DNA of 41,515 nucleotides from contig JAFXDE010000037.1 of the NCBI GenBank assembly GCA_017516315.1, positions 1 to 41,515 of the forward strand. Reading direction: 5' to 3'. Positions within the stretch are counted from its first letter, which is position 1; each line of letters opens with the position of its first letter. The notes beneath the pieces are model-generated. The model worked only from the letters and a program-made list of their open reading frames with translations, searched no databases and had not been told where the DNA came from. This DNA comes from Clostridia bacterium. GTDB lineage: Bacteria; Bacillota; Clostridia; Oscillospirales; Acutalibacteraceae. This document shows positions 10,867 through 29,685 of this stretch, piece by piece. The translations under genes and the position numbers were made by a program.

Positions 10867-10897
10867 GAAAATTATTATCCACAGGAGGAACACAATT

Positions 10898-11914: not shown

Positions 11915-11948
11915 TTCACTTTTCCTAAAATTTAATCAGTATGAAAAT

Positions 11949-11980
11949 AAATGCTGCACAACCTGCAGCATTTATTTGAC
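11949..11980 (+). terminator. Intercistronic hairpin between substrate-binding protein and permease
   Basis: AAATGCTGCA (11949-11958) pairs fully with TGCAGCATTT (11964-11973), loop CAACC, followed by ATTTGACTT with a broken T tract. Probably partial termination or 3'-end protection, the usual arrangement behind transporter binding proteins. Confidence 0.7.
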
Positions 11981-12031
11981 TTAATAAATCATTTTATTAT
12001 GTTTGAAATTTGAAGCAAAGGAGGCGGATTC

Positions 12032-14152: not shown

Positions 14153-14164
14153 GTAAATATGATT

Positions 14165-14202
14165 AACCCGTTGTATTTTATGTACAGCGGGTTTTGTTTT
14201 TT
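14165..14202 (+). terminator. Intrinsic terminator of the TRAP operon
   Basis: AACCCGTTGTA (14165-14175) pairs with TACAGCGGGTT (14183-14193) with one G-T pair, then TTTTGTTTTTT. Confidence 0.9.
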
Positions 14203-14241
14203 ATTCACGAAATATTTACTTTAATATTTCTGTCCTTTCTC

Positions 14242-14270
14242 TTGACAAAAACACGGAAAACGAGTAAATT
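14242..14270 (+). promoter_or_regulatory. Sigma-A promoter of the 14334 gene
   Basis: TTGACA (14242-14247), 17-bp spacer, TAAATT (14265-14270). The leader to the ATG is about 57 nt. Confidence 0.65.
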
Positions 14271-14333
14271 ATAAGTAATGCTTAATTAGTATGGAAAAGT
14301 ATATAATCTCAGATAAAGGAGAGAATTATAATT

Positions 14334-15245: not shown

Positions 15246-15259
15246 TTTCAAAAAATTTG

Positions 15260-15286
15260 AGAGCAACCCGACGGGTTGCTCTTTTT
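15260..15286 (+). terminator. Intrinsic terminator between convergent genes
   Basis: AGAGCAACCC (15260-15269), loop GAC, GGGTTGCTCT (15273-15282), then T4. Perfect 10-bp stem. Confidence 0.93.
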
Positions 15287-15299
15287 ATATGCCTTTATT

Positions 15300-16133
15300 T
15301 CATTTGAAAACCCTTGCGAATAATTCTATTCCCGAGGCTTTCATTACGGCACTGCTTGCATGGGAGCATACCGTACCGAGAAGCTTATTGCCTACGCTCA
15401 TAAGATGCGCATCTACTCCGAACACCATATCGGCTCTTTTATTTTTCATACCTCTGAGTATGAGATTGCACATTCTGTCACAGTCGGTGCTGATAAAATC
15501 CATAGCCTTCTGCGCCTTGCTTTCTATGGCTGCTCCCTGATTGCTGAAGATGTTTGTTTTGGTAAATCCGGGACAGACAAGGCCTATGTAGCATTCCTTT
15601 CTGTATTCCTCTCTTACAGCGTCGGTGAGACTTTTAAGGGCAGCCTTGCTGGCGGAATAAACTGATGTACCGGCTAAGGAGCAGAGGGCGGCCGAGGAGG
15701 CGATGTTTACTACTGAGGCGCTGTCAGACTCGAGAATGACCGGCATAAGCGCATTCATAGAGTAAAGGCAGGAGTAAAAGTTTATGTGCATCGCTTTGTC
15801 AAGCTCTTCTACGGTGTAATTGAGAAAACGGTCAAACTTCGGAAGTATGCCTGCATTGTTAATGAGAATATCGGGTCTGATATTTTCGTTTCTTACGGTT
15901 TCTGCGAAGCCTTCCCAGTTTTCCTTTACTGAAACATCGAAGGTATAGTAGGTGAAGCGGTCACCTTTATCGCCGAGGGAGCTTTTCAGCTTCAAAAGCC
16001 TTTCCTCGTTTCGTGCTATACCGATAACTCTGCATCCGTGTTCCTTTATGAGTCTTTCGGTAAGGTCTTTGCCGATGCCGCTTGAAGCACCCGTAAGGAT
16101 AACGGTTTTATTGTCATACCAACAGTTATTCAT
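15300..16133 (-). CDS. Short-chain dehydrogenase/reductase
   Basis: 277 residues, ATG with AAAGGTG upstream. The Rossmann glycine motif is GASSGIG (15-21), the NNAG motif is at 92-95, the catalytic Ser is near 146 (NIASSAA), and the YxxxK pair is Tyr159-Lys163 in YSASKAAL. It is a classical SDR that reduces or oxidises an unknown substrate with NAD(H) or NADP(H); Arg41-Asn42 after the second strand suits NADP. The C-terminus carries extra basic and hydrophobic residues after 230. The gene stands alone, with an unusual promoter region carrying a dyad in a 20-bp spacer, which suggests induction by a MerR-type regulator. Confidence 0.9.
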   Translation of the reverse strand: MNNCWYDNKTVILTGASSGIGKDLTERLIKEHGCRVIGIARNEERLLKLKSSLGDKGDRFTYYTFDVSVKENWEGFAETVRNENIRPDILINNAGILPKFDRFLNYTVEELDKAMHINFYSCLYSMNALMPVILESDSASVVNIASSAALCSLAGTSVYSASKAALKSLTDAVREEYRKECYIGLVCPGFTKTNIFSNQGAAIESKAQKAMDFISTDCDRMCNLILRGMKNKRADMVFGVDAHLMSVGNKLLGTVCSHASSAVMKASGIELFARVFK

Positions 16134-16168
16134 TTAATACACCTTTATTCTTTTTAAGATTTTTTAAT

Positions 16169-16200
16169 ATAATACCACCAAGGGGGTATGGGAGTGTTAA
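16169..16200 (-). promoter_or_regulatory. Promoter with dyad in a 20-bp spacer, MerR-type arrangement
   Basis: Minus strand TTAACA (16200-16195), 20-bp spacer, TATTAT (16174-16169). The dyad ATACCCCCTTGGTGGTAT (16189-16172) overlaps the spacer and -10. Long spacers with central dyads are the mark of MerR-regulated promoters; its GGGGGTAT half also resembles CsoR sites. No such regulator is in the window. Confidence 0.45.
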
Positions 16201-16279
16201 GAGTGTATTAACAAAAGATAAACTGAGTCTTATGCAGGCGTGATATACACATAAAAAGATTAAAGATGTTTTCTAAATA

Positions 16280-16308
16280 TTGACAAACAGACTTTTTTAG
16301 TCTATAAT
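16280..16308 (+). promoter_or_regulatory. Perfect-consensus sigma-A promoter of the secreted-protein gene
   Basis: TTGACA (16280-16285), 17 bp, TATAAT (16303-16308); start of transcription near 16315, leader of about 50 nt. Confidence 0.92.
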
Positions 16309-16365
16309 CAAAATACATAGGTGTCACATATACACCGAAAATACAAAATAATTGGAGGAATCCTT

Positions 16366-16815
16366 ATGAAAAAAGCATTAGCATTAATTCTTTCTATGCT
16401 TGTAATCTTCTCTATGTTCGGTATGGTTGCAGCTGCAGAAGGCGAAGAAACAGAGCTCGTTTCCGTAACATTTATGGTTGACGGTGAGGTTTACTACTAC
16501 ATCGAATGCTTACCCGGTGCAAATATCGTTGAGCGCTTACAGCAGGGAGATAATAAACTCGAAACACCTGAAAAGGATCTCGGCGACGGTTATGTTTACA
16601 CATTCAAGCATTGGGAAAATGCAGCTAACGGTGATATAAGATTTACCGGCAATATCCCTCCCGTTAATGAAGACACAGTTTATAACGCTGTTTTCAACGT
16701 AGAGGAAAAGGTTGACACACAGTCCTTCTGGGCATTCGTTACAACTATCTTCGAAAGAATCAATATGATTTTTGAATACTTCGCAAAGGTATTTGAAGGC
16801 GTATTCGATTTCTAA
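16366..16815 (+). CDS. Small secreted protein with one InlB-type beta-grasp-like repeat and amphipathic tail
   Basis: 149 residues from the ATG at 16366, which has TTGGAGG 8 nt upstream; the upstream GTG at 16321 lies too close to the predicted transcript start and lacks a ribosome site. Residues 1-24 are a signal peptide ending in MVAAAEG. Residues 32-112 look like a single InlB B-type repeat (VTFMVDGEVYYYIEC, YTFKHWENAANGD, PPVNEDTVYNAVFN), a fold found in many Gram-positive surface proteins. Residues 119-149 form a strongly amphipathic aromatic helix (FWAFVTTIFERINMIF and EYFAKVFEGVF). The perfect promoter and simple layout suggest abundant secretion. The tail recalls the aromatic helix near the end of the giant protein at 34558. 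Function unknown. Confidence 0.85.
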   Translation: MKKALALILSMLVIFSMFGMVAAAEGEETELVSVTFMVDGEVYYYIECLPGANIVERLQQGDNKLETPEKDLGDGYVYTFKHWENAANGDIRFTGNIPPVNEDTVYNAVFNVEEKVDTQSFWAFVTTIFERINMIFEYFAKVFEGVFDF

Positions 16816-16857
16816 GCTGAGATTCCCTAAGGGAAAAGAAAATCAAATCAGATACAC

Positions 16858-16897
16858 AACCATCGTAAAAGCGAAAGCTGATGCGATGGTTTTTTTC
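16858..16897 (+). terminator. Intrinsic terminator
   Basis: AACCATCG (16858-16865) pairs with CGATGGTT (16884-16891); an inner GC-GAAA-GC tetraloop hairpin sits on top; a run of T follows. Confidence 0.88.
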
Positions 16898-16914
16898 TTT
16901 GACAGTTTTTTTCA

Positions 16915-16943
16915 TTGACAAATAATCTTATAAATGGTATATT
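16915..16943 (+). promoter_or_regulatory. Sigma-A promoter of glnA
   Basis: TTGACA (16915-16920), 17 bp, TATATT (16938-16943). I see no GlnR-type dyad in the short leader. Confidence 0.85.
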
Positions 16944-16985
16944 TAATAATAATGAATTTTATCCCTTTGGAAGAGGAGGTATGTT

Positions 16986-18317
16986 ATGAGCATTTACACA
17001 AAGGAAGATATAATACGCATAACGAAGGAAGAAAAGGTAAACTTCATAAATCTGCAGTTTACTGACATCCTCGGCACACTTAAAAGCGTTTCCGTAACTA
17101 CAAGCCAGCTTGAAAAGGCTCTCAATAACCGCTGTATGTTTGACGGCTCATCCATCGACGGCTTCGTAAGAATCGAAGAAAGCGATATGTGTCTCTATCC
17201 TGACCTTGACTCTTTCGTAATTCTTCCCTGGGACGAATGCTCGGGTAAGACAGCGAGACTTATATGCGATGTTTATAATTCTGACGGTACTCCCTTTGAG
17301 GGCGACCCCCGTTATGTTCTTCGCAGAGCTATAAAGAGGGCAGCCGATATGGGCTACACCTGTAACATCGGTCCCGAATGCGAATTTTTCCTTTTCCATA
17401 AGGATGAACAGGACAAGCCTACCACCAGAAGCTATGACAAGGGCGGCTACTTTGACTTAGGTCCCGTTGACCGCGGAGAGGGCTGCAGAAGAGATATCTG
17501 TCTCTGCCTCGAAAAGATGGGCTTCGAAATCGAGGCCTCCCATCACGAGAATGCTCCTGCACAGCACGAAATCGACTTTAAATATGACGAGATTTTAAGA
17601 ACTGCCGACAATGTTATGACATTCAAGTATGTAGTAAAAAATCTCGCTAATCAGCATAATCTTTACGCTACCTTTATGCCTAAGCCTATTTACGGAATCT
17701 GCGGCTCGGGTATGCATATCAATCTCTCACTTTTCAACGGCGACAAAAATGTTTTCTGCGACGAAAATGACGAAAGAGGTCTCAGCGGTGTTGCCTATAA
17801 CTTTATCGCAGGTGTTATGCACCATATCAAGGCTATCACCGTTCTCACAAATCCCATCGTAAACTCTTATAAAAGACTTGTTCCCGGATATGAGGCTCCC
17901 GTTTACATCGCCTGGAGTGCTAAAAACAGAAGTCCTTTAATCCGTATTCCTACTGCAAGAGGTACGGGTACACGAATAGAGCTTCGTAATCCCGACCCTG
18001 CAGCAAATCCTTATCTCGTTATGGCCGCCATTCTTCAGGCAGGTCTTGACGGCGTGGAAAAGAAAATGACTCCTCCTGCTCCTGAGGATTCTAATATCTT
18101 TAAGCTTACGGCAGAGGAGAGAAGAGAAGCAGGTATCCATTCTCTTCCCAAAACGCTCTATGATGCAGTAAGAGAGTTCAGAAAGAGTGACTTTGCCAAG
18201 GAAGCAGTAGGCGAGCATGTTTGGAAAAAATACATCGAAGCCAAGGAAGAGGAATGGCGTGAATACAGCACCAGAGTTTCTCAGTGGGAAATCGATAAGT
18301 ATTTAGGTAAGTATTAA
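16986..18317 (+). CDS. glnA: Glutamine synthetase, type I
   Basis: 443 residues, AAGAGGAGGTATGTT before the ATG. Metal and substrate motifs are in place: [10 protein letters not shown] (51-60), GPECEFFLF with Glu131/Glu133, GSGMHINLS (240-248), [14 protein letters not shown] (292-305) with the flap Glu303, and NRSPLIRIP followed by [14 protein letters not shown]. The enzyme makes glutamine from glutamate, ammonia and ATP in the cytosol. Length and the lack of the 25-residue insert place it in the GSI-alpha group, which is controlled by feedback inhibition rather than adenylylation. It is a single-gene unit with its own promoter and a terminator behind. Confidence 0.97.
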
Positions 18318-20731: not shown

Positions 20732-20807
20732 GCTGGAATAGCTCAGTTGGTAGAGCAGCGCATTCGTAATGCGCAGGTCGCGTGTTCGAGTCACGTTTCC
20801 AGCTCCA
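20732..20807 (+). tRNA. tRNA-Thr(CGT), reconstituted at the left end of an integrated element
   Basis: 76 nt. Acceptor stem GCTGGAA/TTCCAGC, D arm GCTC-AGTTGGTA-GAGC, anticodon stem GCGCA/TGCGC with loop TTCGTAA (anticodon CGT, reads ACG), T arm GCGTG-TTCGAGT-CACGT, discriminator T, CCA encoded. Positions 20762-20807 are supplied by the element copy of the attachment core. Confidence 0.96.
20762..20807 (+). repeat. Attachment core attL
   Basis: 46 bp identical to 29640-29685; starts in the anticodon stem and ends with CCA of tRNA-Thr. The bases on either side differ between the two copies, which fixes the ends of the identity. Confidence 0.95.
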
Positions 20808-20879
20808 CCCATAAACCCTTGTGGCATAAGGCTTCGAGGGTTTTCTTCTTTTATGTGATTTGCCCTCATAAATACAATT

Positions 20880-20900
20880 TGGCGTTTATTTGGCGTTTAT
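20880..20900 (+). promoter_or_regulatory. Putative integrase arm-type sites, left end
   Basis: Two copies of TGGCGTTTAT at 20880-20889 and 20891-20900 (period 11 bp), 73 bp inside the left core. The same word occurs three times near the right core. Confidence 0.7.
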
Positions 20901-20923
20901 TGTGTAAAATTCAGATGTTTTTT

Positions 20924-20966
20924 ATATAAAAATTGACCTCTTTCCTTTTATCCGGGAGAGAGGTCA
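20924..20966 (-). terminator. Intrinsic terminator of the DUF3800 gene
   Basis: Minus strand TGACCTCT (20966-20959) pairs with AGAGGTCA (20941-20934), then ATTTTTATAT. It starts just after the stop codon. Confidence 0.8.
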
Positions 20967-20970
20967 TTTG

Positions 20971-21693
20971 TTATTTGCGATATGTCTTTTTATATATTTC
21001 AGGTAAATATGTTACTTTGAAATTTTGGGGTAGATTATCACAGTTTCCTTTTTGAGTTACCGCTTTGTAAAATAATCTGTTTGCTACGATATCTGCAGCT
21101 CGTACAAGTGCTTTAGATGAAGAATTGCAAAAGGTTACGGTAACACTTTTTAAATTCGGAAATATAGGTGGATAGAAAGCATCATACCTAAAATTAAATG
21201 TACCGTGCTTGAATTCTTCTTCTAATGATTCTTTTAATTCGTACAAGCCGTTGGTTGCGGTAGTATGTTCATCGATATAAAAATAAATATTATCAACTTC
21301 TTTAGGATTAATAATACCCTCGGAAATCATATTTTGAAAAAATCGTTTAACCGATATTTTATATGCATAATCTAAATAGCGTTGTTTAGATTTTTTATTA
21401 TCAAATATTTCCGGTAATATTCTTTTTTGGTCAATAACTGCTCCGAACTTGTAAACATTGTTTAATGAACGAAACAGAGAGGCTTTTGATTTGTTTGATA
21501 TTGAAGTAGCTTTGACTTCTTTACCTGGTTTTATTTTTTCGCTACGGCGTATTTGCTTTTCTACCGATAAATACATACGAGTTCTTTTTTCTTTTTCTTC
21601 AGCGCTGAAAAACACAATTCCGCCAAAAACAAAATATTCATTATGAACACAGTCAAAAACACCGGATTCATCTGAACAAACATATATGTTCAT
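20971..21693 (-). CDS. DUF3800 family protein
   Basis: 240 residues from the ATG at 21693 with AGGATG 8 nt upstream; a GTG-type start 27 nt further up would lie in the terminator hairpin of the leader. The family start YVCSDESG carries Asp8-Glu9; further acidic residues are Asp141-Glu142 in YFYIDEHT and Asp201 in RAADIVAN. These three positions match the RNase H-like metal site proposed for DUF3800. No function is firmly established for the family; it is frequent on mobile DNA. The gene is more AT-rich than its neighbours and holds no TGAGGGC word, which suggests separate acquisition. Its own strong promoter, a structured leader of about 98 nt and a terminator precede it, an arrangement like RNA-protein toxin-antitoxin loci. 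Confidence 0.88.
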   Translation of the reverse strand: MNIYVCSDESGVFDCVHNEYFVFGGIVFFSAEEKEKRTRMYLSVEKQIRRSEKIKPGKEVKATSISNKSKASLFRSLNNVYKFGAVIDQKRILPEIFDNKKSKQRYLDYAYKISVKRFFQNMISEGIINPKEVDNIYFYIDEHTTATNGLYELKESLEEEFKHGTFNFRYDAFYPPIFPNLKSVTVTFCNSSSKALVRAADIVANRLFYKAVTQKGNCDNLPQNFKVTYLPEIYKKTYRK

Positions 21694-21709
21694 TTTTTCA
21701 CATCCTAAG

Positions 21710-21807
21710 AAAAAAACCACCCTGATGGGTGGCCCCGTGGTCGACGATATTACATATCGCTTAAATGTTAATTCGATTACACGAGTATACAGCGTATTTC
21801 TACCTGC
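21710..21807 (-). ncRNA. Structured RNA upstream of the DUF3800 gene, ending in its own terminator
   Basis: Predicted from promoter to terminator. Reading the minus strand: a weak stem ATACG/CGTGT, then CGATAT-GTA-ATATCG (21759-21745), then CCACCC-ATCA-GGGTGG (21732-21717) followed by T7. CACGGG just before the terminator could pair back to CTCGTG upstream, enclosing the middle hairpin, and ACCAC could compete for GTGGT of the terminator. I recall that several 'DUF3800' RNA motifs upstream of such genes were proposed by comparative genomics; whether this belongs to one needs a covariance search. Confidence 0.6.
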
Positions 21808-21813
21808 AATTTT

Positions 21814-21841
21814 ATTATATCCAAAAGTAGCATATTGTCAA
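21814..21841 (-). promoter_or_regulatory. Strong sigma-A promoter of the DUF3800 RNA and gene
   Basis: Minus strand TTGACA (21841-21836), 16-bp spacer, TATAAT (21819-21814). Both hexamers match consensus. Confidence 0.88.
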
Positions 21842-21876
21842 CAAGATTTATAGCTTTTTGTGCAACTTGACGGATA

Positions 21877-21926
21877 TGTTTGTGATTGTTTGTGTTGTTT
21901 TATGTTATTTTGTGATGTTTTGCGTT
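21877..21926. repeat. Five 10-bp phased T/G-rich units
   Basis: TGTTTGTGAT, TGTTTGTGTT, GTTTTATGTT, ATTTTGTGAT, GTTTTGCGTT in direct succession, one helical turn each. The spacing suggests a bent or protein-covered site, but no function is known. Confidence 0.5.
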
Positions 21927-22029
21927 AAAGTTTTACTTTGTATTAAAGTCTATGAGGGCGTTATGCTTCTTTCTCGCCCTCATTCTGCATAGCGTGATAA
22001 AAAATAGAAAAAATTTCCATTGGTGTAAA

Positions 22030-22245
22030 TTATTCGGCCTCATCCGGCACATACTCCATAATGTCGCCAGGCTGACAATCGAGGAGCTTACATAATTTTT
22101 CTATTGTTCTTGTGTCGATTATACCGTCACCTGTACGTAATTTTTGGTATGTTGCTTGACTTATAAGATTTTCTTTTCGAATTTTATATGTGGTAATGCC
22201 TTTTTCCTTAAGTAATGCGATTAGTTTATCATACTTTATTGCCAT
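22030..22245 (-). CDS. Small Cro/C1-type HTH regulator
   Basis: 71 residues, AAAGAGG 7 nt before the ATG. Nearly all of it is one Cro/C1-type helix-turn-helix: YDKLIALLKEKGITTYKIRKEN, then SQATYQKLRTG as recognition region, then DTRTIEKLCKLLDCQPGDIMEYV. The last phrase is common in small regulators of Gram-positive mobile elements. It faces a consensus promoter in each direction across a 296-nt gap rich in GTGTA/TACAC words, so it probably represses both its own gene and the rightward operon starting at 22542. Confidence 0.92.
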   Translation of the reverse strand: MAIKYDKLIALLKEKGITTYKIRKENLISQATYQKLRTGDGIIDTRTIEKLCKLLDCQPGDIMEYVPDEAE

Positions 22246-22309
22246 ATAGATACCTCTTTCAAATAGGTTTGGGAATTAACTATAATAAGTCAACTATTCC
22301 ACTATACAC

Positions 22310-22338
22310 ATTATAACAGAATATGCACTATTAGTCAA
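22310..22338 (-). promoter_or_regulatory. Promoter of the small HTH gene
   Basis: Minus strand TTGACT (22338-22333), 17 bp, TATAAT (22315-22310). Confidence 0.85.
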
Positions 22339-22387
22339 GTGTACAATGTAAACGAAATATACACTATAACATTGTGTATGTTGTACA

Positions 22388-22416
22388 TTGACATACTCTT
22401 ACTTATGGTGTATAAT
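22388..22416 (+). promoter_or_regulatory. Perfect-consensus rightward promoter
   Basis: TTGACA (22388-22393), 17 bp, TATAAT (22411-22416). It drives the two small genes at 22542 and 22943 up to the terminator at 23351. Confidence 0.92.
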
Positions 22417-22446
22417 GTAATCACAAGGTTAAGGAAAGGCAACACG

Positions 22447-22509
22447 GTGGAAACAAGCCTGATACTAATGCGAACTGTACAGCAGACACTATCCCGTAAG
22501 CCCTCATAA
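22447..22509 (+). CDS. Possible 20-residue leader peptide
   Basis: GTG start with AAGGAAAGG about 7 nt upstream, 20 codons ending at a TGAGGGC word on the other strand. It lies in the leader of the rightward transcript. No similarity is recognised and it may be chance. Confidence 0.2.
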   Translation: METSLILMRTVQQTLSRKPS

Positions 22510-22541
22510 TTGACCAAATATAAAATAAAGGAGTAAAAACA

Positions 22542-22817
22542 ATGACTACAAACGAACTCACAACCAAAATCAGAGAGCTTAAGGAGCTGCAGGCCCTCAT
22601 TGATGAAGCAACAGCTGAGGCAGATGCAATCAAAGACGAATTAAAGGCGCATATGACCTCTGAGGGCAAGGAAGAAATGACAGTTGACATGTATAAGGTC
22701 AGATACACAGTAGTTAAAAGCAGCCGTTTTGATTCTGCATCATTCAAAAAGACACACGGAGATTTATATGAACAGTACAGTAAGCAGACCGAAACACGCC
22801 GTTTCAGCGTGGCATAA
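22542..22817 (+). CDS. Small protein with N-terminal coiled coil, unknown function
   Basis: 91 residues, AAAGGAG 9 nt before the ATG. Residues 1-40 are a charged helix likely to form a coiled coil (ELTTKIRELKELQALIDEATAEADAIKDELKAHM). Residues 45-91 read VDMYKVRYTVVKSSRFDSASFKK...YEQYSKQTETRRFSV; this kind of sequence is familiar from clostridial phages and integrative elements, where it is annotated as hypothetical. First gene after the strong rightward promoter, so made early and controlled by the small HTH protein. It holds two TGAGGGC words, coding QAL and SEGK. Confidence 0.85.
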   Translation: MTTNELTTKIRELKELQALIDEATAEADAIKDELKAHMTSEGKEEMTVDMYKVRYTVVKSSRFDSASFKKTHGDLYEQYSKQTETRRFSVA

Positions 22818-22881
22818 AGAAAAGCCCTTGTATCTCCACCGACCAAAGCGAAATACAAAAGGCTAATCAAAAACCCTGTCA

Positions 22882-22915
22882 AGAGAGGGTGAATTCATTA
22901 TATAATGCCCTCTCT
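22882..22915 (+). other. Hairpin in front of the 22943 gene
   Basis: AGAGAGGG (22882-22889) pairs with CCCTCTCT (22908-22915), 28 nt before the ATG at 22943. May stabilise or regulate the second cistron. The word CACCGACCAAAGC occurs both before this hairpin and again behind the 22943 gene (near 22838 and 23304). Confidence 0.45.
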
Positions 22916-22942
22916 GACTTGTCAAGAATAGGAGATAATAAA

Positions 22943-23293
22943 ATGATTGAAAACAAGACTACAAACGAAAAATACACCATTAACGGCAAAGATTTTGACA
23001 TTATAGGCTATGTTTCACCAAACGCCTGTGATAAAGGCGCAAGAGTGGAGAAAGATTATCCCGGCGCCGTACCGCTTTTGAATATTAAAATGATGTCAGA
23101 CTTTAAATGGCAATATTTATCTCTTATGAGCCGAATTGAAGGTCCTGAAGGCTATGAGAGCAGAGGTGAAGATGTACCGGCAGTTATTGAGAAGCTGAAA
23201 CAATGGCTCAGAGAACATATTGACTGCATCGGGGATTTGAAGCCTGAAGAACAGCAGAAAATTAACGCTGTTTTAAACGAATCCGCAGCTTAA
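22943..23293 (+). CDS. Small acidic protein, unknown function
   Basis: 116 residues from the ATG at 22943 with AGGAGA 8 nt upstream; the ORF extends 54 nt further but that part lies in the hairpin and has no ribosome site. Sequence blocks are KYTINGKDFDIIGYVSPNACDKGARVEKDYPGAVPLLNIKMMSDF, then a helical part ending WLREHIDCIGDLKPEEQQKINAVL. Compact and soluble; no motif is recognised. Second gene of the rightward operon. Confidence 0.82.
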   Translation: MIENKTTNEKYTINGKDFDIIGYVSPNACDKGARVEKDYPGAVPLLNIKMMSDFKWQYLSLMSRIEGPEGYESRGEDVPAVIEKLKQWLREHIDCIGDLKPEEQQKINAVLNESAA

Positions 23294-23350
23294 TGAATTA
23301 TTTCACCGACCAAAGCTAAAAACACCATATTAACCAACCACAGGAGATAC

Positions 23351-23388
23351 AAGAGCAGACAATTCACCGTTGTTTGCTCTTTTCTTTA
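23351..23388 (+). terminator. Intrinsic terminator of the rightward operon
   Basis: AAGAGCAGACAA (23351-23362) pairs with TTGTTTGCTCTT (23370-23381) through one G-T pair, then TTCTTT. Confidence 0.88.
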
Positions 23389-23444
23389 CCAATTTTGCCC
23401 TCATAGACCTTTTAAATGTTTTTATAATGACTTTTCATTTGCGG

Positions 23445-23930
23445 TTTTCTCTCGGTTTGTTCTCGGTTCGATTTGCCTTTTTCTCGAAGTTAGATTAATT
23501 TTCCTCGCGCGCGTACGTGTGAGAGATGTTTGGTTTTATAAGGTTGTTTTTATGCTTTATGAGGGCAGATTATGTCCTAAACTTAATACTGTTAAGAGCC
23601 GTTTAAAGGACTTTCATCCCTGTTTTACGCTCTCTTTTTATCGTGTTACATAACATCTGTCGAAATAGTGAAAAATACACTTTTCTCTTGATTCATTCTT
23701 GGTTCGATTTGCTTTTCCTCGCGCGCGTGCGCGTGAAAGAGGTCAAGTTTTGTCAAGTTGTTTTATACCGTTTATGAGGGCTGTTATGTCCTAAACTTAA
23801 TACTGTTAAGAGCCGTTTAAAGGGCTTTCGCGCCCTCTTTTATGCTCTCTTTTTATCGTGTCCGGATTAGTGTTTATTGAACAGGTGGAAAATGGCTTTT
23901 CTCTCTGTTCGCTCTCAGTTCGATTCTACA
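23445..23930. repeat. Non-coding tandem repeat, two full copies and a partial third
   Basis: Copies begin at 23445, 23681 and 23897 with TTTTCTCT and GGTTCGATT. Each full copy then has a CG-only run CCTCGCGCGCGT, a TTTATGAGGGC word, and a conserved block with the nested fold CCTAAACTTAA-TACTG-TTAAG...GTTTAAAGG, followed by a small second hairpin and GCTCTCTTTTTATCGTGT. Only the loop-proximal and hairpin bases of the second hairpin differ: GGA/TCC in copy 1, GGGC/GCCC in copy 2. The gap 23389-23914 holds no gene. Origin, incompatibility region or RNA are possible. Confidence 0.75.
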
Positions 23931-24619
23931 TTTGTCCTCATAAGCTGTATAAACTTTTCTATGCCCTTGGGTGTAATAAGTACCTGAATACCGCTGTGAC
24001 CGTTTCTGTCGCTGTAAAACTGCTTATGCTTGCATAATCCCTGGTCGATACTGCGCTGATATGCTCTTATATCTCCGTAACCGTCACGATAGGTATAGCC
24101 TGCTTGCATAAGTTCATTGATAAGTCTGTTTCTCGGTACACCTATCAGCTTAGCGGCATCTGTGAAATTAACTGACTTACCGTGAGCAATAACGTTGTCA
24201 TAATAGTCCGCTTTTGGCTTCATAACGCTGTTTTCTTCAATGAGGGCAGTGTTAACTGCTTTAACAGAATCAAGCTGTTTTTGTGCAAATTGCAAAGCTC
24301 TGCTCATAACCGATTCAGGAGAGTTCCATTTCTTTTCAAGCTCGATAAAATATTGTCTTGCCTGTTTGCCCTCAGAGCTTCTTTGAAGCATACATATCTC
24401 TTTTGACATTTCTATTGTTAGCTGATATTCTGTTTTAGGTCTGCCGCCTGTACTTTCACTCAAAAATGAGTAAAAGTCTTTTCCATCTTCAAAACCATAT
24501 TCACACATTCTCGGAAACCAATCCGTAAACGCTGTTTTTACATTCAAAAACTGATGCAATTCTCTTGCTGATACTGTCGGTCTGTCATTGTCATAATTAA
24601 CTGCTATTAAATCATACAT
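23915..24619 (-). CDS. Phage-type antirepressor (AntA-like N-terminus, KilAC C-terminus)
   Basis: 234 residues, AGAGG 9 nt before the ATG. Residues 10-95 match the AntA/AntB domain (VSARELHQFLNVKTAFTDW, GFEDGKDFYSF, RPKTEYQLTIEMSKEICML, KQARQYFIELEKKW). Residues 130-234 match KilAC: PKADYYDNVIAHGKSVNFTD, AAKLIGVPRNRLINELM, then the C-terminal LITPKGIEKFIQLM. Such proteins bind repressors and release the lytic or excision programme of phages and phage-like elements. It lies downstream of rep in the leftward block. Its presence shows phage ancestry of at least this part. Confidence 0.92.
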   Translation of the reverse strand: MYDLIAVNYDNDRPTVSARELHQFLNVKTAFTDWFPRMCEYGFEDGKDFYSFLSESTGGRPKTEYQLTIEMSKEICMLQRSSEGKQARQYFIELEKKWNSPESVMSRALQFAQKQLDSVKAVNTALIEENSVMKPKADYYDNVIAHGKSVNFTDAAKLIGVPRNRLINELMQAGYTYRDGYGDIRAYQRSIDQGLCKHKQFYSDRNGHSGIQVLITPKGIEKFIQLMRTNVESN

Positions 24620-24728
24620 AGTATTAACCTCTTTTATCTTTCTGTGCTGTGTTTCGTTCTAAAACTTTACACATTTTCAAGTCTTGTAAAAGCTGATATG
24701 AAAATTAGCTCGAATTTATCTTTTATGT

Positions 24729-25463
24729 TTATGAGGGCGTGACTTTTTGCACCTCTTTTACATACTTAAAGTACAAATAACCGTATTTCGTGCTTTTGAT
24801 TTCGACCAATTTATAGCCTTTAGGTGCTTGAGGTGAACTTTTTTCGCTGTATATACGCTTAACTTCGGCTATATCTTCCTTTTCGGGCGTTCTTGCATTA
24901 CGTGTCTGTTTCCATCGGTGCCCGCCCTGCTCAGGTGTCCAATGGTCAAAGAGATAATTTGCAAGGCCTGTATAGTCACAGCCATAATCAACACCACCGT
25001 AATAGTTATGCTCTCGCAGATTCTCTACAGAAATAATAGATCCGTATATCCACTGTTTATTGATAATATCTGCAGGTATGCCCTCAGAAAGCATATGTAC
25101 ATGAATACGGCGTGTGTTTTTACCTCTGCCCAGGTATATGAAGATAACGGCATCAGGGCGAGCGTACTTTAACCGGCGCACAAATAAATCTCTTATATGC
25201 TTTGCTTCATCAAAAGTATGTACTTCGTTTTCATTATCGAAGGTAAGAGTGCTGTATAAAGAGCCGGGAGAAAAGTTTTCATTGACAAGACGTGCGTGTT
25301 TACGCCTGGATATGCCTAATTTATGCTGTTCTCGCTCTTCTTCGGTATTAAATCTTAAGCGTGGCTTTGCCGTTATATCGTTCTTTGCTCTGTCAGATAT
25401 GCTGTATATCTCCTGTTCGCATACAACGCCTGAAAAGGTTCTTTTCTTTACTCTTTTTCGCAT
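24729..25463 (-). CDS. rep: HUH rolling-circle replication initiator (Rep)
   Basis: 244 residues, GGAG 10 nt before the ATG. Motif 1 is LYSTLTFDNE (69-78), motif 2 the His-hydrophobic-His metal site RIHVHMLSEG (His121, His123), motif 3 is DYTGLANYLFDHW with candidate nucleophiles Tyr164 and Tyr170. This is the pattern of small Rep proteins related to those of inoviruses, microviruses and rolling-circle plasmids. The protein nicks its origin, stays bound to the 5' end and primes unwinding. There is no fused helicase, so a host helicase is needed. The leader carries an 11-bp inverted repeat and an opposing promoter for a short antisense RNA, the usual copy-control layout of plasmids. Confidence 0.85.
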   Translation of the reverse strand: MRKRVKKRTFSGVVCEQEIYSISDRAKNDITAKPRLRFNTEEEREQHKLGISRRKHARLVNENFSPGSLYSTLTFDNENEVHTFDEAKHIRDLFVRRLKYARPDAVIFIYLGRGKNTRRIHVHMLSEGIPADIINKQWIYGSIISVENLREHNYYGGVDYGCDYTGLANYLFDHWTPEQGGHRWKQTRNARTPEKEDIAEVKRIYSEKSSPQAPKGYKLVEIKSTKYGYLYFKYVKEVQKVTPS

Positions 25464-25492
25464 TTCATCAAATCTCCGTCTGAATACTCATA

Positions 25493-25561
25493 TAAGGCGG
25501 TAAATTTGACATACAGACTATCTTGTGTTATACTATGTACACTCACATACTTACCGCCTTA
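25493..25561. repeat. Inverted repeat in the rep leader
   Basis: TAAGGCGGTAA (25493-25503) and TTACCGCCTTA (25551-25561), perfect 11-bp arms 47 bp apart, enclosing the promoter of the antisense RNA. In the rep mRNA the arms could close a long hairpin just before the ribosome site; it may also mark the replication origin. Confidence 0.75.
25506..25534 (+). promoter_or_regulatory. Promoter of the antisense RNA over the rep leader
   Basis: TTGACA (25506-25511), 17 bp, TATACT (25529-25534), pointing against rep. Confidence 0.82.
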
Positions 25562-25606
25562 GGGCGTGCCTTACATAAGTTGCCGCTTATGTGGGGCGTT
25601 TTTTAT
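25541..25606 (+). ncRNA. Probable countertranscribed RNA controlling rep
   Basis: About 66 nt from the promoter at 25506-25534 to the terminator at 25568-25604, entirely antisense to the rep leader. It covers one arm (25551-25561) of the inverted repeat, so binding would prevent or shift the leader hairpin. There is no open reading frame. Size and position match plasmid ctRNAs. Confidence 0.65.
25568..25604 (+). terminator. Intrinsic terminator of the antisense RNA
   Basis: GCCTTACATAAG (25568-25579), loop TTGCCG, CTTATGTGGGGC (25586-25597), then G and T6. Twelve pairs, two of them G-T. Confidence 0.88.
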
Positions 25607-25607
25607 T

Positions 25608-25841
25608 TCAAATTACTTTTCTTATGCCCTCATGAGTTTCTTTTTGACTTAATGAGGGCGTATTTAGCATTTCAAAGAGTCGGTCAAGGTTTATAAGCCT
25701 TTTATTGCCCACTCTCACAACAGGGATTTCACCTCTGTTTACTGCCGCCCTCAATGCTCTCAGAGTGTAAGCTGTAGCAGGATCAGCCTTTTTCAGCTCT
25801 GCAAATGCTTCCGGGAGAGTTCTCATTCGTGGCACAGACAT
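25608..25841 (-). CDS. xis: Excisionase-family DNA-binding protein
   Basis: 77 residues from the ATG at 25841 (AAGGCGG 7 nt upstream). It reads PRMRTLPEAFAELKKADPATAYTLRALRAAVNRGEIPVVRVGNKRLINLDRLFEML: a winged helix of the MerR/excisionase type, with the recognition helix around LRALRAAVNRGEI and the wing VVRVGNKRLIN. Such proteins bend DNA at the attachment sites and steer the integrase to excision. It precedes rep in the leftward block and nearly touches the small HTH gene upstream (1-nt gap). Confidence 0.85.
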   Translation of the reverse strand: MSVPRMRTLPEAFAELKKADPATAYTLRALRAAVNRGEIPVVRVGNKRLINLDRLFEMLNTPSLSQKETHEGIRKVI

Positions 25842-25842
25842 A

Positions 25843-26028
25843 TTAAACCGCCTTTCTGCTTGCAGAGATACTGTCAATTATGGCAAGTATTTTTATTTTT
25901 TCATCTTCGGGCAGTTCGTGACGGAGTTTTCTTGTCAATGTCATATCGCACACACCAAGTTTTTCGGCAATTTGCCAAAGGCGAACACCATTTTCTTTTG
26001 CTTTGATTCTGATTTCCTGATTATTCAT
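25843..26028 (-). CDS. Very small HTH protein
   Basis: 61 residues from the ATG at 26028 (AAGAGGTG 7 nt upstream); the long upstream extension of the frame has no ribosome site. The sequence is NNQEIRIKAKENGVRLWQIAEKLG, then VCDMTLTRKLRHELPEDEKIKIL. This is a minimal Cro-like helix-turn-helix of a kind common in elements of gut Firmicutes. As first leftward gene facing the larger repressor across 168 nt, it takes the position of Cro in a lambda-like switch. Confidence 0.85.
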   Translation of the reverse strand: MNNQEIRIKAKENGVRLWQIAEKLGVCDMTLTRKLRHELPEDEKIKILAIIDSISASRKAV

Positions 26029-26053
26029 TGTTTTACACCTCTTAAATTTAATA

Positions 26054-26089
26054 TTGACAACAACAACACATAATGATATACTTGTGTTG
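26054..26089 (+). promoter_or_regulatory. Promoter and operator of the repressor-integrase operon
   Basis: TTGACA (26054-26059), 17 bp, TATACT (26077-26082). A dyad CAACACA (26064-26070) / TGTGTTG (26083-26089) brackets the -10 box, so a repressor bound there would block transcription. A second TATAAT at 26111-26116 has no good -35. Confidence 0.7.
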
Positions 26090-26196
26090 CTGTCGTTTGT
26101 GTCACTGACATTATAATGCATAAAAATGTTGAAGTCAATACAAAACGATGCACAAAATCTAAATTCAACAAATATATGCAAGGGCGTGCTTTTTTT

Positions 26197-26985
26197 ATGA
26201 CAACAATTGAAAGCTTTTCAACAAAATTGAAAAAATTAAGGGAAGAAAAAGGATTAAATCAATCTGAATTAGGTGAGGCTTTGGGGGTGTCCAGGGGAAG
26301 TATCAGCTTTTATGAAAAAGCAGAGCGCATACCTGATATTGATTTTTTAGTGAAAACGGCAAAATTTTTTGACGTTCCTGTTGATTATCTATTAGGATTA
26401 AGTACTGTATCTGAAAAAGATGTCGATACTGATTTGAAAGCTGTTAGTGATTATATCGGTTTGGATTTTCAAATAGTAGAGATGTTGCATTTTTCTACAT
26501 TAGGCAGAAAACGCGACAATACCGGCAAGCCTAAAGAAGATGATTTTATTTTATTTATAAAAGAATTTTTAGGAGATTATAGTGAATTTTTAAATACAGA
26601 TGTTTGGGCGTATGATTCGGACAATATTCCTTCCTTGGCTCTTCATTATTTGTATTTGTTACAGGATTATAATAGCTTTTTAGATTATAGATTCGAACAA
26701 AAAGGCTTTTCTCTTGATGAAATTCCCGCGGATAATGTAGATAAATATTTACTGCATTTATATGAGATGAAGAGCCTATCAGATGAAAAGTGTAAAGTAA
26801 TCGATGAAGCCTACAAAAACATATTTGAGAGCTTGAAACGCTTGATAGAAAACTATTGTTTTAATGAACGTGCAAAGTCTTTTTGTAGCAAACAAAAAAT
26901 AGAAAAATATATTAATCTTCTTTATTGTGTAAAAGAAGGTAAAGAAATAACAGATGAACTGCTTTTTAATTTAGATTTAATTTAA
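26197..26985 (+). CDS. Cro/C1-type repressor with large C-terminal domain
   Basis: 262 residues from the ATG at 26197, whose ribosome site AAGGG is weak and distant; upstream in-frame starts have none. Residues 8-65 are a classical HTH (FSTKLKKLREEKGLNQSELGEALGVSRGSISFYEKAERIPD), followed by VDYLLGLS. The remaining 190 residues are mostly helical and Phe/Tyr/Leu-rich, with no LexA-type Ser-Lys dyad seen, so release is more likely by a partner such as the antirepressor than by self-cleavage. It is 12 nt upstream of the integrase gene and co-transcribed with it. AT-rich, no TGAGGGC words. Confidence 0.9.
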   Translation: MTTIESFSTKLKKLREEKGLNQSELGEALGVSRGSISFYEKAERIPDIDFLVKTAKFFDVPVDYLLGLSTVSEKDVDTDLKAVSDYIGLDFQIVEMLHFSTLGRKRDNTGKPKEDDFILFIKEFLGDYSEFLNTDVWAYDSDNIPSLALHYLYLLQDYNSFLDYRFEQKGFSLDEIPADNVDKYLLHLYEMKSLSDEKCKVIDEAYKNIFESLKRLIENYCFNERAKSFCSKQKIEKYINLLYCVKEGKEITDELLFNLDLI

Positions 26986-26997
26986 GAGGTGATTCGA

Positions 26998-28380
26998 ATG
27001 CCAACGATAGCGAAGCGGAATGACACATATAAAATAACCGTTTCAGCCGGTTATGATATAAACGGTAAACAGATACGCCGATATATGACCTGGAAGCCGC
27101 CCTCATCAATGACTTTGAAACAGGCAGAAAAAGAGGTCAAAAGGCAAGCGGTACTCTTTGAAGAAAGGGTGAAGAACGGCACTTATCTTGACGGATCTAT
27201 TAAGTTTGCCGATTTTGCGGAGCAGTGGTTTAACGATTATGCAAAAGAACATCTGAGGGCAACCACATACAAACGTTATAAATCAATGATGCCGAGAATA
27301 AACGCCGCTATAGGACATATGAAGCTCGAAAGAATACAGCCTCAACATCTTCTCTCTTTTTATAAAAACCTTGCTGAAACAGGTATAAGAGAGGATATGA
27401 AGTATACGGCTTGCTGCGACCTGCGTGCCCTCATAAAAGGTAAAAAAATGACTTTCAGAAGTATTGCAGAATCTGCAGGCATAGGAGAAAGAACAGTATC
27501 AGCTGCTGTTAACGGTCAGAATGTAACAGAAAAAACGGCTCTTGCCATATGCGGAGCTTTATCAGAGCCGATAGAGAATGTGTTTGCTCTTGTCGATGAG
27601 GGCAAAACGCTCTCTTCTTCAACAATACACTACTATCACAACGTAATATCTTCGATGCTGACTACGGCTGTACAGTGGCAGATTATATTTTCTAATCCTT
27701 GCGACAGAGTAAAGCCGCCTAAGGTGGGAAAGCCTGAGCCGAAGTACCTCGATGAAGAGCAGGCGAAGAATTTAATTGATTGTCTCCAGAATGAGGGCGT
27801 ACAGTTCCGGGTGATGATAGAGCTGTTAATGTTTACAGGCTTAAGACGTGGTGAATTGTTAGGCTTGGAATGGTCTGATATTGACTTTGACAATAAAATC
27901 ATAAACGTGCGCCGTAATTCTTTATATCTTCCTGAAATGGGTGTATTTGAAGATGAAACTAAAACTGCAGGCTCACAAAGAGCTTTTAAAATATCTGATG
28001 CAGTTATAGATTTACTGAAAGAACAAAGAACCTGGCAGGCATCACAAAGGCTTAAGCTCGGTGATAAGTGGATAAATTCAAACAGGCTCTTTACAGCTTG
28101 GAACGGGGAGCCGTTAAATCCCTCTACCTTAACAAGCAAATTCAGAAGATTTAAACAGAAGCATAATATTGAGGGCATAAGCATCCACGGATTAAGACAC
28201 ACAAACGCCACTCTGCAGATTGCCGCAGGTACTCCACTTACAACGGTTGCTCACCGCCTCGGCCATACCAATGCAAGCACAACCACAAAAATATATGCCC
28301 ACGCTATAAAGTCGGCTGATGAAGCTGCAGCTGAAGCAATAGCAGATATTTTAACTCTTGGCAGAAAACAAACAGTATAA
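26998..28380 (+). CDS. int: Tyrosine integrase with an HTH inserted in the core-binding region
   Basis: 460 residues from the ATG at 26998 with AAGAGGTG upstream. Residues 1-60 are an arm-binding AP2-like domain (YKITVSAGYDINGKQIRRYMTW); 66-135 begin the SAM-like core-binding domain. Residues 140-200 hold an insert reading FRSIAESAGIGERTVSAAVNG, ending near VFALVD, which looks like a Cro/C1-type helix-turn-helix; 205-240 finish the core-binding domain. The catalytic domain has Arg283 (TGLRRGEL), Lys322 (DETKTAGSQR), His397-Arg400 (HGLRHTN), His423 (LGHTNAS) and the nucleophile Tyr433 (KIYAHA). It recombines the 46-bp core in tRNA-Thr. I believe integrases of this layout are known in other clostridial elements. 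Confidence 0.95.
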   Translation: MPTIAKRNDTYKITVSAGYDINGKQIRRYMTWKPPSSMTLKQAEKEVKRQAVLFEERVKNGTYLDGSIKFADFAEQWFNDYAKEHLRATTYKRYKSMMPRINAAIGHMKLERIQPQHLLSFYKNLAETGIREDMKYTACCDLRALIKGKKMTFRSIAESAGIGERTVSAAVNGQNVTEKTALAICGALSEPIENVFALVDEGKTLSSSTIHYYHNVISSMLTTAVQWQIIFSNPCDRVKPPKVGKPEPKYLDEEQAKNLIDCLQNEGVQFRVMIELLMFTGLRRGELLGLEWSDIDFDNKIINVRRNSLYLPEMGVFEDETKTAGSQRAFKISDAVIDLLKEQRTWQASQRLKLGDKWINSNRLFTAWNGEPLNPSTLTSKFRRFKQKHNIEGISIHGLRHTNATLQIAAGTPLTTVAHRLGHTNASTTTKIYAHAIKSADEAAAEAIADILTLGRKQTV

Positions 28381-28388
28381 AAAAACAG

Positions 28389-28423
28389 ACCGCTTTCCTT
28401 TTTTGTGAGGTTAGCGGTTTTTT
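28389..28423 (+). terminator. Intrinsic terminator behind int
   Basis: ACCGCT (28389-28394) pairs with AGCGGT (28413-28418), with an inner CCT/AGG, then T6. It separates the sigma-like gene from the integrase transcript. Confidence 0.8.
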
Positions 28424-28499
28424 GATGTCCGTATTTTTGGACTTTGATATTTACTTTGTGAGATTCAGGCTTTAAAATGGGGGTATGAGGTGATGAAAT

Positions 28500-29381
28500 A
28501 TGACAAATGAAGAACTTATTCAAAAAATCAAAAGTTACCCGGTGGATAAAAGCAAGTATATGGCACAGCTGTACAATCAGAACAGAGGTTTTATATACAA
28601 AACTGCTCTCCAATACTCAAAAACTGCTGAAATAGACGATTTAATGCAAGAGGCGTATATTGTTCTTGATGAAGTTGTGCGAAATTACAGAACAGATATA
28701 AACATAAAGTTTATAACGTATTTCGGTAAGGTTTTAAGATGGCGTTTTTCTGCCTATACATTCAAAACTTCAACACCTATTAAAATGCCCTCAGAATTTA
28801 AAGAGTTAATAAGAAAATATCATCAGTTTAATCAGGTGTATTTTCAGAGTCACGGTGAAAAGCCTGCTGATGAGGAGTATATGAGGGCATTAAATATATC
28901 ACAAGAAACATTGGAGAGCTTGAAAACAGCAGTTATGCTTTTAAGTACGGTTTCTTTTGATGAACCTTTAAACGACGCGGAGGGCATATCTTTACAGGAG
29001 ACAATACCGGCAGACGAAGATATAGAAGATACAATAACCGAGTCTAAAGAAAGAGAGTACCTTAATAGTTGCCTTTATAGAGCTGTTGATAATTTGGATC
29101 CTCATAAAAAGAAAGCAATAACAGATTTTTACTTTAAAAATAAATCTGTTTCAGATACGGCCAAAGATTTGAATTTGTCTTTAGGCGTTGCACATGGACT
29201 GAAGACTAAAGCTATAAGAGAATTAAGAAGAGATTGGCGGCTATATAGAGCTGTAATAAAAGAAGAACATTATGATGATTCTGATAGTTACCGATATTCT
29301 TTAGGGCGTTTCAAAAGAAGCGGTTTATCTCCTGTTGAGATTATAGCCATAAGAAACGAAAGAGATAAAAATGTCGTTTGA
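28500..29381 (+). CDS. Sigma-70-like RNA polymerase sigma factor encoded by the element
   Basis: 293 residues, GAGGTGATGAAAT before the ATG. Region 2 is at about 28-85 (NRGFIYKTALQYS, AEIDDLMQEAYIVLDEVVRNY, FITYFGKVLRWRFSAY), a region-3-like segment at 100-160 (KPADEEYMRALNISQETLESL, then VSFDEPL), and region 4 at about 190-245 (LDPHKKKAITDFYFKNKSVSDTAKDLNLSLGVAHGL). It ends in an unusual basic tail of about 45 residues. Region 3 is kept, so it is fuller than an ECF factor. It would direct polymerase to promoters of the element or of a partner. It lies between int and attR, in the cargo position. Holds two TGAGGGC words. Confidence 0.85.
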   Translation: MTNEELIQKIKSYPVDKSKYMAQLYNQNRGFIYKTALQYSKTAEIDDLMQEAYIVLDEVVRNYRTDINIKFITYFGKVLRWRFSAYTFKTSTPIKMPSEFKELIRKYHQFNQVYFQSHGEKPADEEYMRALNISQETLESLKTAVMLLSTVSFDEPLNDAEGISLQETIPADEDIEDTITESKEREYLNSCLYRAVDNLDPHKKKAITDFYFKNKSVSDTAKDLNLSLGVAHGLKTKAIRELRRDWRLYRAVIKEEHYDDSDSYRYSLGRFKRSGLSPVEIIAIRNERDKNVV

Positions 29382-29454
29382 AAGCAAATTTGAAGCCCTG
29401 AGTCATAAAAATAGCATTAAACCCAGACGGCATAAGGGAAAGAGCTGTTTTTAA
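29371..29454 (+). CDS. Possible 27-residue peptide overlapping the sigma gene end
   Basis: ATG at 29371 inside the last codons of the sigma gene, preceded by GAAAGAGA; reads MSFESKFEALSHKNSIKPRR and ends KSCF. The overlap could allow translational coupling. No similarity recognised. Confidence 0.25.
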   Translation: MSFESKFEALSHKNSIKPRRHKGKSCF

Positions 29455-29500
29455 GCTTTGAAATAATTCAAATTTTTTCAAAATTTTTCCAAATTTATTC

Positions 29501-29541
29501 TGGCGTTTATTTGGCGTTTGTTTCGGTGTTTTGGCGTTTAT
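29501..29541 (+). promoter_or_regulatory. Putative integrase arm-type sites, right end
   Basis: TGGCGTTTAT at 29501-29510, TGGCGTTTGT at 29512-29521 and TGGCGTTTAT at 29532-29541, 99-139 bp inside the right core. Same word, orientation and 11-bp period as at the left end. Confidence 0.7.
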
Positions 29542-29639
29542 ATTTCGTGAAAGTCCGTGAAAGACAGATGTGCCGAAAATATAGATATGATGGGATAAAA
29601 TGACACCTTGTGAAACAGCGCTAACTCATAGAAATTAGT

Positions 29640-29685
29640 ATTCGTAATGCGCAGGTCGCGTGTTCGAGTCACGTTTCCAGCTCCA
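29640..29685 (+). repeat. Attachment core attR
   Basis: 46 bp identical to the 3' half of tRNA-Thr (20762-20807), without the 5' half, so it is not a working tRNA. Marks the right end of the element; chromosome-type genes resume after it. Confidence 0.95.

Follow-up and report, generated by a model that had tools for sequence, protein, structure and literature searches.

Results

The locus and its repeated word

The window, the whole 41,515-nucleotide stretch analyzed here (contig JAFXDE010000037.1, contig 45 of the 2.06 Mb draft genome G000 of a Clostridia bacterium of the Acutalibacteraceae), carries an integrated element of ~8.9 kb at a tRNA-Thr gene, delimited on the basis of the perfect 46-bp direct repeats that flank it (Table 1). 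The genes of the element include a tyrosine integrase, a phage-repressor-like gene (hereafter the larger repressor gene), an AntA/KilAC antirepressor, small helix-turn-helix proteins, an excisionase-like protein (HTH17), a sigma-70-like protein and a replication initiation protein (Rep), and no structural genes were recognized among the element proteins scanned. The Rep carries the motif RIHVHML and is, by its sequence, likely of the rolling-circle type. Spread through this element, inside genes and between them, is a 7-mer, TGAGGGC.

Counted on both strands, TGAGGGC occurs 30 times in the window against 3.75 expected, a number reached in none of 100 dinucleotide shuffles. Twenty-four of these copies lie within 20862-28888, and in the element proper (20808-29639) they compare with 0.86 expected under an order-2 Markov model, so that the original prediction, made from the letters of the window, was right in calling the word enriched in the element only: the rest of the window holds six. 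In a count of all 7- and 8-mers against the Markov background, TGAGGGC (z 25) and the fuller form ATGAGGGC (17 copies) rank first in the element. The whole draft genome contains 348 copies of TGAGGGC, and the element is therefore ~17 times denser than the rest, far from the equal density elsewhere that would have spoken against a special status. A maximal-order Markov model, which expects 20.9 copies in the element because the sub-words are themselves inflated by TGAGGGC, is uninformative either way. The 21 one-mismatch variants of the word have together 14 copies in the element, against ~22 expected from the rate in the rest of the window, and TGAGGGC is therefore sharply defined.

The copies are divided equally between the strands (12 on each), and 17 of the 24 lie in eight genes, in several reading frames. 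Within-gene synonymous shuffles of these eight genes gave 1.53 +/- 1.17 copies, with a maximum of 6 in 2000 trials, against the 17 observed, confirming the earlier view that codon constraint does not explain the word. The DUF3800 gene and the larger repressor gene, which were noted from the outset as free of copies and are so, were omitted from this test. Two copies share a duplication of ~215 bp and hence are not independent. A longer form, TTTATGAGGGC, occurs five times in the element, twice inside genes, and two opposed pairs of copies form stable hairpins (z -3.9 and -4.4), so that some copies may double as terminators.

Table 1. Features of the integrated element and the 24 copies of TGAGGGC within it, in window coordinates
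Feature	Positions	Strand	Remarks
Integrated element at tRNA-Thr	20762..29685		~8.9 kb
Direct repeats	20762-20807 and 29640-29685		46 bp, perfect; bound the element
DUF3800 gene	20971..21720	-	no copies; possibly recent cargo
orf91	22542..22817	+	best PHROG match of unknown function; second, C-terminus of RecE-like exonuclease family
Replication initiation protein (Rep)	24729..25463	-	PHROG 3584; REP_ORF2-G2P match below Pfam cut-off
HTH17	25608..25841	-	excisionase-like; rival candidate reader of the word
Larger repressor gene	26116..26985	+	phage-repressor-like; no copies
Tyrosine integrase	26989..28380	+	XRE-like helix-turn-helix inserted between SAM-like and catalytic domains
Sigma-70-like protein	28500..29381	+	right end of element; counterparts in L118, L121 and L123
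Hairpin, copies 2 and 3	21953-21982		z -3.9
Hairpin, copies 14 and 15	25626-25659		z -4.4
Copy 1	20862..20868	-	within TTTATGAGGGC
Copy 2	21953..21959	+	hairpin with copy 3
Copy 3	21976..21982	-	hairpin with copy 2
Copy 4	22500..22506	-	
Copy 5	22593..22599	-	orf91
Copy 6	22661..22667	+	orf91
Copy 7	23397..23403	-	
Copy 8	23560..23566	+	duplicated unit
Copy 9	23775..23781	+	duplicated unit
Copy 10	24241..24247	+	AntA gene
Copy 11	24368..24374	-	AntA gene
Copy 12	24732..24738	+	3' end of Rep gene
Copy 13	25080..25086	-	Rep gene
Copy 14	25626..25632	-	HTH17 gene; hairpin with copy 15
Copy 15	25653..25659	+	HTH17 gene; hairpin with copy 14
Copy 16	25747..25753	-	HTH17 gene
Copy 17	27099..27105	-	integrase gene
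Copy 18	27254..27260	+	integrase gene
Copy 19	27427..27433	-	integrase gene; alignment column common to four relatives
Copy 20	27597..27603	+	integrase gene
Copy 21	27792..27798	+	integrase gene; column common with L123
Copy 22	28170..28176	+	integrase gene
Copy 23	28787..28793	-	sigma-like gene
Copy 24	28882..28888	+	sigma-like gene

The word in related elements of the genus

A search of 33 further genomes of the genus found relatives of the integrase (46-68% identity) in seven of them, at eight loci, one genome having two, and the stretches around them (L118-L125) were counted within element limits set by eye, the short contig L122 contributing 2.7 kb. TGAGGGC exceeds expectation in seven of these eight elements (P 1.4e-3 to ~1e-16), which differ in their genes; in L123 all 21 copies, at about 9322-17405, have the form ATGAGGGC. 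The eighth, L118 (host G303), has the integrase closest to that of the window (68% identity) and uses GCAGAGG instead, with no TGAGGGC at all and 39 copies of GCAGAGG against 1.6 expected, 37 of them as TGCAGAGG. The exchange extends into the integrase gene itself, which contains six TGAGGGC and no GCAGAGG in the window and none and eight, respectively, in L118; the two sets of sites have no alignment column in common, though two pairs are neighboring. Across the integrase alignment, part of the TGAGGGC sites go back to common descent, one column being occupied in five elements, and other sites occur in one element each. The pattern among the genus elements is one of turnover around a maintained word, not of inherited fixed sites. 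An exact word, codon context excluded, the same word in relatives and its replacement in a sister together support the view, already taken in the original prediction, that TGAGGGC is a maintained DNA-level signal, and one that is replaceable.

Strand use is near equal in the three elements with most copies (12/12, 20/19 and 11/10) and in another (6/6), while L124 has 6/2. Density varies, from 2.5-4.4 copies per kb in genus elements that have the Rep family to 0.56 (L119), 0.75 (L120) and 1.5-1.8 (L121, L122, L124 and L125) in those without it. This Rep family was present in 4 of 54 scanned loci (the window, L118, L123 and L299), all four with a significant dispersed word (defined as a -log10 P of 7 or more), and the first three give the strongest word signals of all scanned loci. 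The association of Rep with higher word density is a trend in few elements.

The helix-turn-helix insert of the integrase was considered as a reader of the word and rejected, for window and L118 have nearly the same insert helix yet different words. The integrase has full-length relatives in other genera and on viral contigs.

Genus loci of another type

Twenty further loci of the genus were fetched, namely L258 and 19 loci around PF00589 matches, the latter covering 20 of the 26 listed matches outside the integrase family of the window, some of them probably housekeeping recombinases. L258 was chosen for its cluster of ATGAGGGC and L256 without regard to the word, and the counted stretches were drawn around the copies. 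L258 (host G296) contains eight TGAGGGC in 4.3 kb (0.31 expected) and L256 (host G308) six in 3.4 kb (0.22 expected). The former encodes a tyrosine recombinase of another type and has no match to the proteins of the element; the recombinase of the latter is similar in kind to that of L258, is split over two frames and matches the integrase of the window only at E 0.002, with the other genes of the element unmatched. The presence of TGAGGGC in two integrative loci of another type therefore favors a reader supplied by the host, on the strength of two examples.

AGCGG in the words of other genera

Loci of the same integrase/HTH17 family in other genera of the bacterial family, found via HTH17 or integrase alignment, amounted to 31 of at least 4 kb. 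A significant word was present in seven, and six of the seven words contain AGCGG (TGAGCGGC, AGGAGCGG, CGAAGCGG, GAGCGGG, CAGCGGT and CACAGCGG), the seventh being TCGAGGAG; in L158 and L164, AGCGG words fall just below the threshold. A control set of 100 loci, drawn from contig samples and AddB loci, gave five with a significant word and none with AGCGG in it, though many of these controls are shorter than the loci of the elements, which lowers their power. The AGCGG words are concentrated in the stretch around the integrase, which holds 16/16 of them in L154, 11/11 in L155, 15/15 in L157, 10/10 in L299, 21/23 in L287 and 7/9 in L288. AGCGG is listed as the Chi of Bacillus subtilis (PMC8022716, PMC5959072, PMC4824097) and GAAGCGG as the Chi or a Chi-like word of Staphylococcus aureus (PMC8022716, PMC5959072). 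Both words of the genus, TGAGGGC and TGCAGAGG, lack AGCGG.

AddB of the hosts

In a search confined to AddB, the model TIGR02773 matched in all 34 genomes of the genus, each time below its curated cut-off, and the sole solved-structure match of the AddB proteins of G000 and G303 was B. subtilis AddB (3u44_B). At the residue aligned to B. subtilis D41, hosts from other genera have E in 30 cases and D in one (31 read of 34 searched), and all six hosts of AGCGG-word elements are among them. In this genus the same position is R or K in 27 genomes and E in three (G303, G316 and G317; 30 read of 34), and every readable host of a TGAGGGC-rich locus (G000, G302, G311, G323, G324, G296 and G308) has R or K. 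The replacement of E/D by R/K at position 41 accompanies the class of word, a suggestive association that nevertheless follows descent. As to the position itself, F68A and F210A of B. subtilis AddB are described as Chi-binding mutants (PMC4824097), and RecC residues including Q38 and T40 are reported to influence Chi recognition (PMC5959072). The Q-x-T spacing of RecC appears to resemble that of Q42 and T44 in AddB, and the neighboring D41 may matter for, or touch, the Chi-reading site.

Discussion

A candidate Chi-type signal

The explanation that we consider best, with a probability of about 0.48 and hence just short of even odds, is that TGAGGGC, in its fuller form ATGAGGGC, is a Chi-type signal of the host AddAB in this genus that has accumulated on the element. 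AGCGG within the words of other genera, the sharing of the word beyond one family, balanced strands, word turnover, the AddB residue and the association with Rep all suggest it. The original prediction did not name a Chi-type signal among the possible readings, though the last item of its list, a site recognized by some protein of the host or the element, covers it.

On linear DNA, degradation by AddAB continues up to the first properly oriented Chi that the enzyme encounters. An element that passes through AddAB-sensitive linear forms, as its apparently rolling-circle Rep would imply, could profit from amplifying the word on both strands, for linear or broken element DNA entered by AddAB from either end would soon meet a correctly oriented copy. 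If AddAB does read the word, it would there stop destruction and give way to RecA-dependent repair, to recircularization or to concatemer formation; a change in AddB would have altered the specificity for Chi in this genus. Linear head-to-tail concatemers of rolling-circle plasmids have been reported to accumulate when AddAB is absent (PMC5615212).

The comparison with the Chi words of AddAB (AGCGG in B. subtilis, GAAGCGG in S. aureus) and of its equivalents RexAB and RecBCD is close in several respects, since the word is short, exact, G-rich, asymmetric and lineage-specific, AGCGG words occur in some related elements of other genera, and the hosts encode AddAB by their AddB match. It differs in that the word is packed on small elements, at about 0.6-4.4 per kb, with hardly any enrichment in the host chromosomes sampled, and in that the words here are TGAGGGC and TGCAGAGG, candidates known from sequence. 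Rolling-circle plasmids, which accumulate high-molecular-weight linear DNA in cells without AddAB or RecBCD and also when they carry Chi, have in common with the element a likely rolling-circle Rep and an expected link between concatemers and AddAB; they differ from it in that the element is integrated and has many native copies of the word.

We hold more tentatively the general proposal that small replicating elements of gut Bacillota load the current Chi word of the host, turning AddAB from a defense nuclease into a protector, and that the word is rewritten when the AddB specificity of the host lineage changes. Such elements would then reveal which Chi uncultured bacteria use, this genus TGAGGGC, one of its genomes TGCAGAGG, and bacteria elsewhere AGCGG with extensions specific to their lineage. 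The lists in PMC8022716 and PMC5959072 contain few Chi words from outside Proteobacteria. If the proposal is true, mobile elements would offer a simple, sequence-only route to the Chi words of hosts and to the evolution of AddAB specificity, and small elements with no recognized AddAB inhibitor would have a means of surviving the main DNA-end nuclease of the host. Among the titles and abstracts listed for Chi on mobile elements or rolling-circle DNA, none describes such arrays of words.

Evidence against a Chi-type signal

Several results weigh against the Chi-type reading, chief among them that host chromosomes are hardly enriched in the words of their elements and that AGCGG by itself is mildly enriched in several elements of other genera. 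In chromosome samples, contigs taken without checking for mobile genes and compared with a third-order Markov expectation, we counted 14 TGCAGAGG against 10.6 expected in G303 (156 kb), 6 TGAGCGGC against 5.5 in G453 (99 kb), and 4 and 6 ATGAGGGC against 2.0 and 3.3 in G324 (100 kb) and G318 (51 kb); G302 (82 kb) is the exception, clearly enriched with 11 ATGAGGGC against 2.2. Chi words of the Escherichia coli type are usually over-represented in the chromosome. TGAGGGC reaches up to ~2 times its expectation in several hosts, also where another word marks the element (25 against 12.8 in G317, 15 against 7.6 in G453), and the host flanks in the window have 6 against 2.2 expected, while none of 35 chromosome samples has a 4-kb stretch with more than four copies.

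The same direction is taken by 18 of the 20 fetched integrase-type loci of the genus, with at most three TGAGGGC per 4 kb, by the 24 of 31 other-genus loci that have no significant word, and by viral contigs with the same integrase family, a dispersed word being found in 0 of 14 scanned, some of them near-identical. A scan of viral contigs by HTH17 alignment returned one locus, without a significant word. Bare AGCGG is much denser inside the element than outside it in L154 (8.3 per kb, compared with 1.7) and in L288 (4.5, compared with 1.0), but in L155, L157, L287 and L299 the difference is mild (4.4-5.8 inside, 3.2-4.0 outside), so in four of the six elements the flanking bases carry much of the signal. 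In a pooled 5-mer test of 48 Rep-family loci AGCGG had a z of 10.9, far behind the top word CCGCC (29.1), though that test is dominated by GC-rich words and uninformative. The AddB of G303 has E at position 41, like other genera, yet the word of its element is TGCAGAGG and not an AGCGG word, and the AddB-word association is confounded with descent because both are genus-wide. Finally, the stimulation of recombination by AGCGG in B. subtilis is described as unclear (PMC8022716).

Two words were considered as genome-wide host words and rejected. ATGAGGGC lies above its reversed control in many genomes of the genus, but that control lacks a matched composition, and in the chromosomal samples the Markov tests give little enrichment outside G302; TGCAGAGG is common across low-GC genomes of the genus, yet not above expectation in G303. 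A separate observation is that GAGCGG/CCGCTC is avoided more than any other 6-mer both in the G000 samples (the window outside the element and L242-L244), where 79 kb contain 3 copies and 29 are expected, and in the G303 samples (L260-L267), where 156 kb contain 2 and 52 are expected. Such avoidance resembles the effect of a restriction system with that site, and CCGCTC is the recognition site of BsrBI. In other genera, some related elements have GAGCGG as the core of their word.

Alternative readers of the word

An unlikely but serious alternative is that a small DNA-binding protein of the element, such as HTH17, binds the word for silencing, for copy control or for partition, much as phage stoperators are bound at dispersed positions, in which case the word would follow the specificity of the protein. 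An exact word with sharp limits at the element would suit a sequence-specific binder, and few genes are as well conserved between the genus elements as that of HTH17 (68-74% identity), with orf91 similar in this respect. The HTH17 helix reads RAAVNRGEIP in six of the seven TGAGGGC elements with a complete HTH17 and RRAVNEGKIP in the TGCAGAGG element, but L121 uses ATGAGGGC with a different helix (RADVNNGKIP), and by eye neither the integrase insert nor HTH26 nor HTHsm has a helix that tracks the word. Moreover, the word is present in L256 and L258, where nothing matches HTH17, nine of the 14 scanned viral contigs of the integrase family encode HTH17 relatives and show no dispersed word, and AGCGG common across genera is not expected of such a binder. 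Mycobacteriophage L5 offers a parallel, for its mobile genome too is dotted with some two dozen copies of a single asymmetric word, the stoperators. These are mostly intergenic and in one orientation; here 17 of 24 copies are in genes, strands are balanced and the word is common to elements of another type, and the repressors of the related elements are divergent. Were the reader an element protein after all, sister elements that have fully exchanged a dense word running through their whole length would still represent an unusual and testable identity system.

Less probable again is another DNA signal at the level of the host: an uptake word for natural transformation, a word that a helper phage or conjugative element uses in packaging or transfer, or a site for escape from host defense. 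That elements of different type within one genus have the word in common would be expected here too, and so, for uptake, would the two hairpin pairs, since uptake words of Neisseria also form such pairs. The DNA uptake sequences of Neisseria and Haemophilus are likewise exact short words in and between genes, sometimes as inverted hairpin pairs, but uptake words fill the host chromosome, whereas these words are concentrated on small elements, and their weak or absent enrichment in sampled chromosomes argues against the uptake word that the original prediction had listed. Its segregation and packaging words fare no better, as polar words of this sort are expected to be strand-skewed; unlike the polar guide sequences KOPS and SRS, the word has no strand skew in the three richest elements, though L124 departs from this, and no helper was identified. 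As for escape from defense, the avoidance of GAGCGG in the samples of G000 and of G303 is in its favor, so restriction may shape the choice of word.

Spread of the word by duplication or mutation bias, without selection, would account for the two copies within the ~215 bp duplication and is otherwise highly improbable, given copies in different genes, frames and flanks, one-mismatch intermediates that are not enriched, and a sister element that fully swapped the word inside the same gene.

Further observations on the element and its surroundings

In gene content and in its location at a tRNA the element resembles Bacillota phage satellites and small integrative elements, with genes for an integrase, a repressor, an excisionase-like protein, a Rep and a sigma-like protein; it differs from the satellites in having no identified helper and in a Rep family that also occurs in a tailed phage, Phage nd12 (66.5% identity). 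Rep as the carrier of the word was considered and rejected, as TGAGGGC was never among the top three words in 53 Rep-homologue loci of other hosts (highest count 5) and AGCGG was contained in two of the seven significant words among 52 Rep-family loci. Four of five fetched phage records with Rep were scanned, of which three small ones had no word and Phage nd12 (first 12.8 kb) had AAGCTGG just under the threshold. AAGCTGG is also a dispersed word at several other loci of the Rep family, L029 (18 copies) and L367 (16 copies) among them, and L018, L020 and L046 are notable for words that contain GATC.

Within the element, orf91, besides its match to the RecE-like family, weakly matches Siphovirus Gp157 and may be linked to recombination, and the duplicated unit of ~215 bp lies within 23445-23932 and has CGCGCG-rich stretches. 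Outside it, the minus strand of the window contains a single open frame of 2309 codons at 34558-41487.

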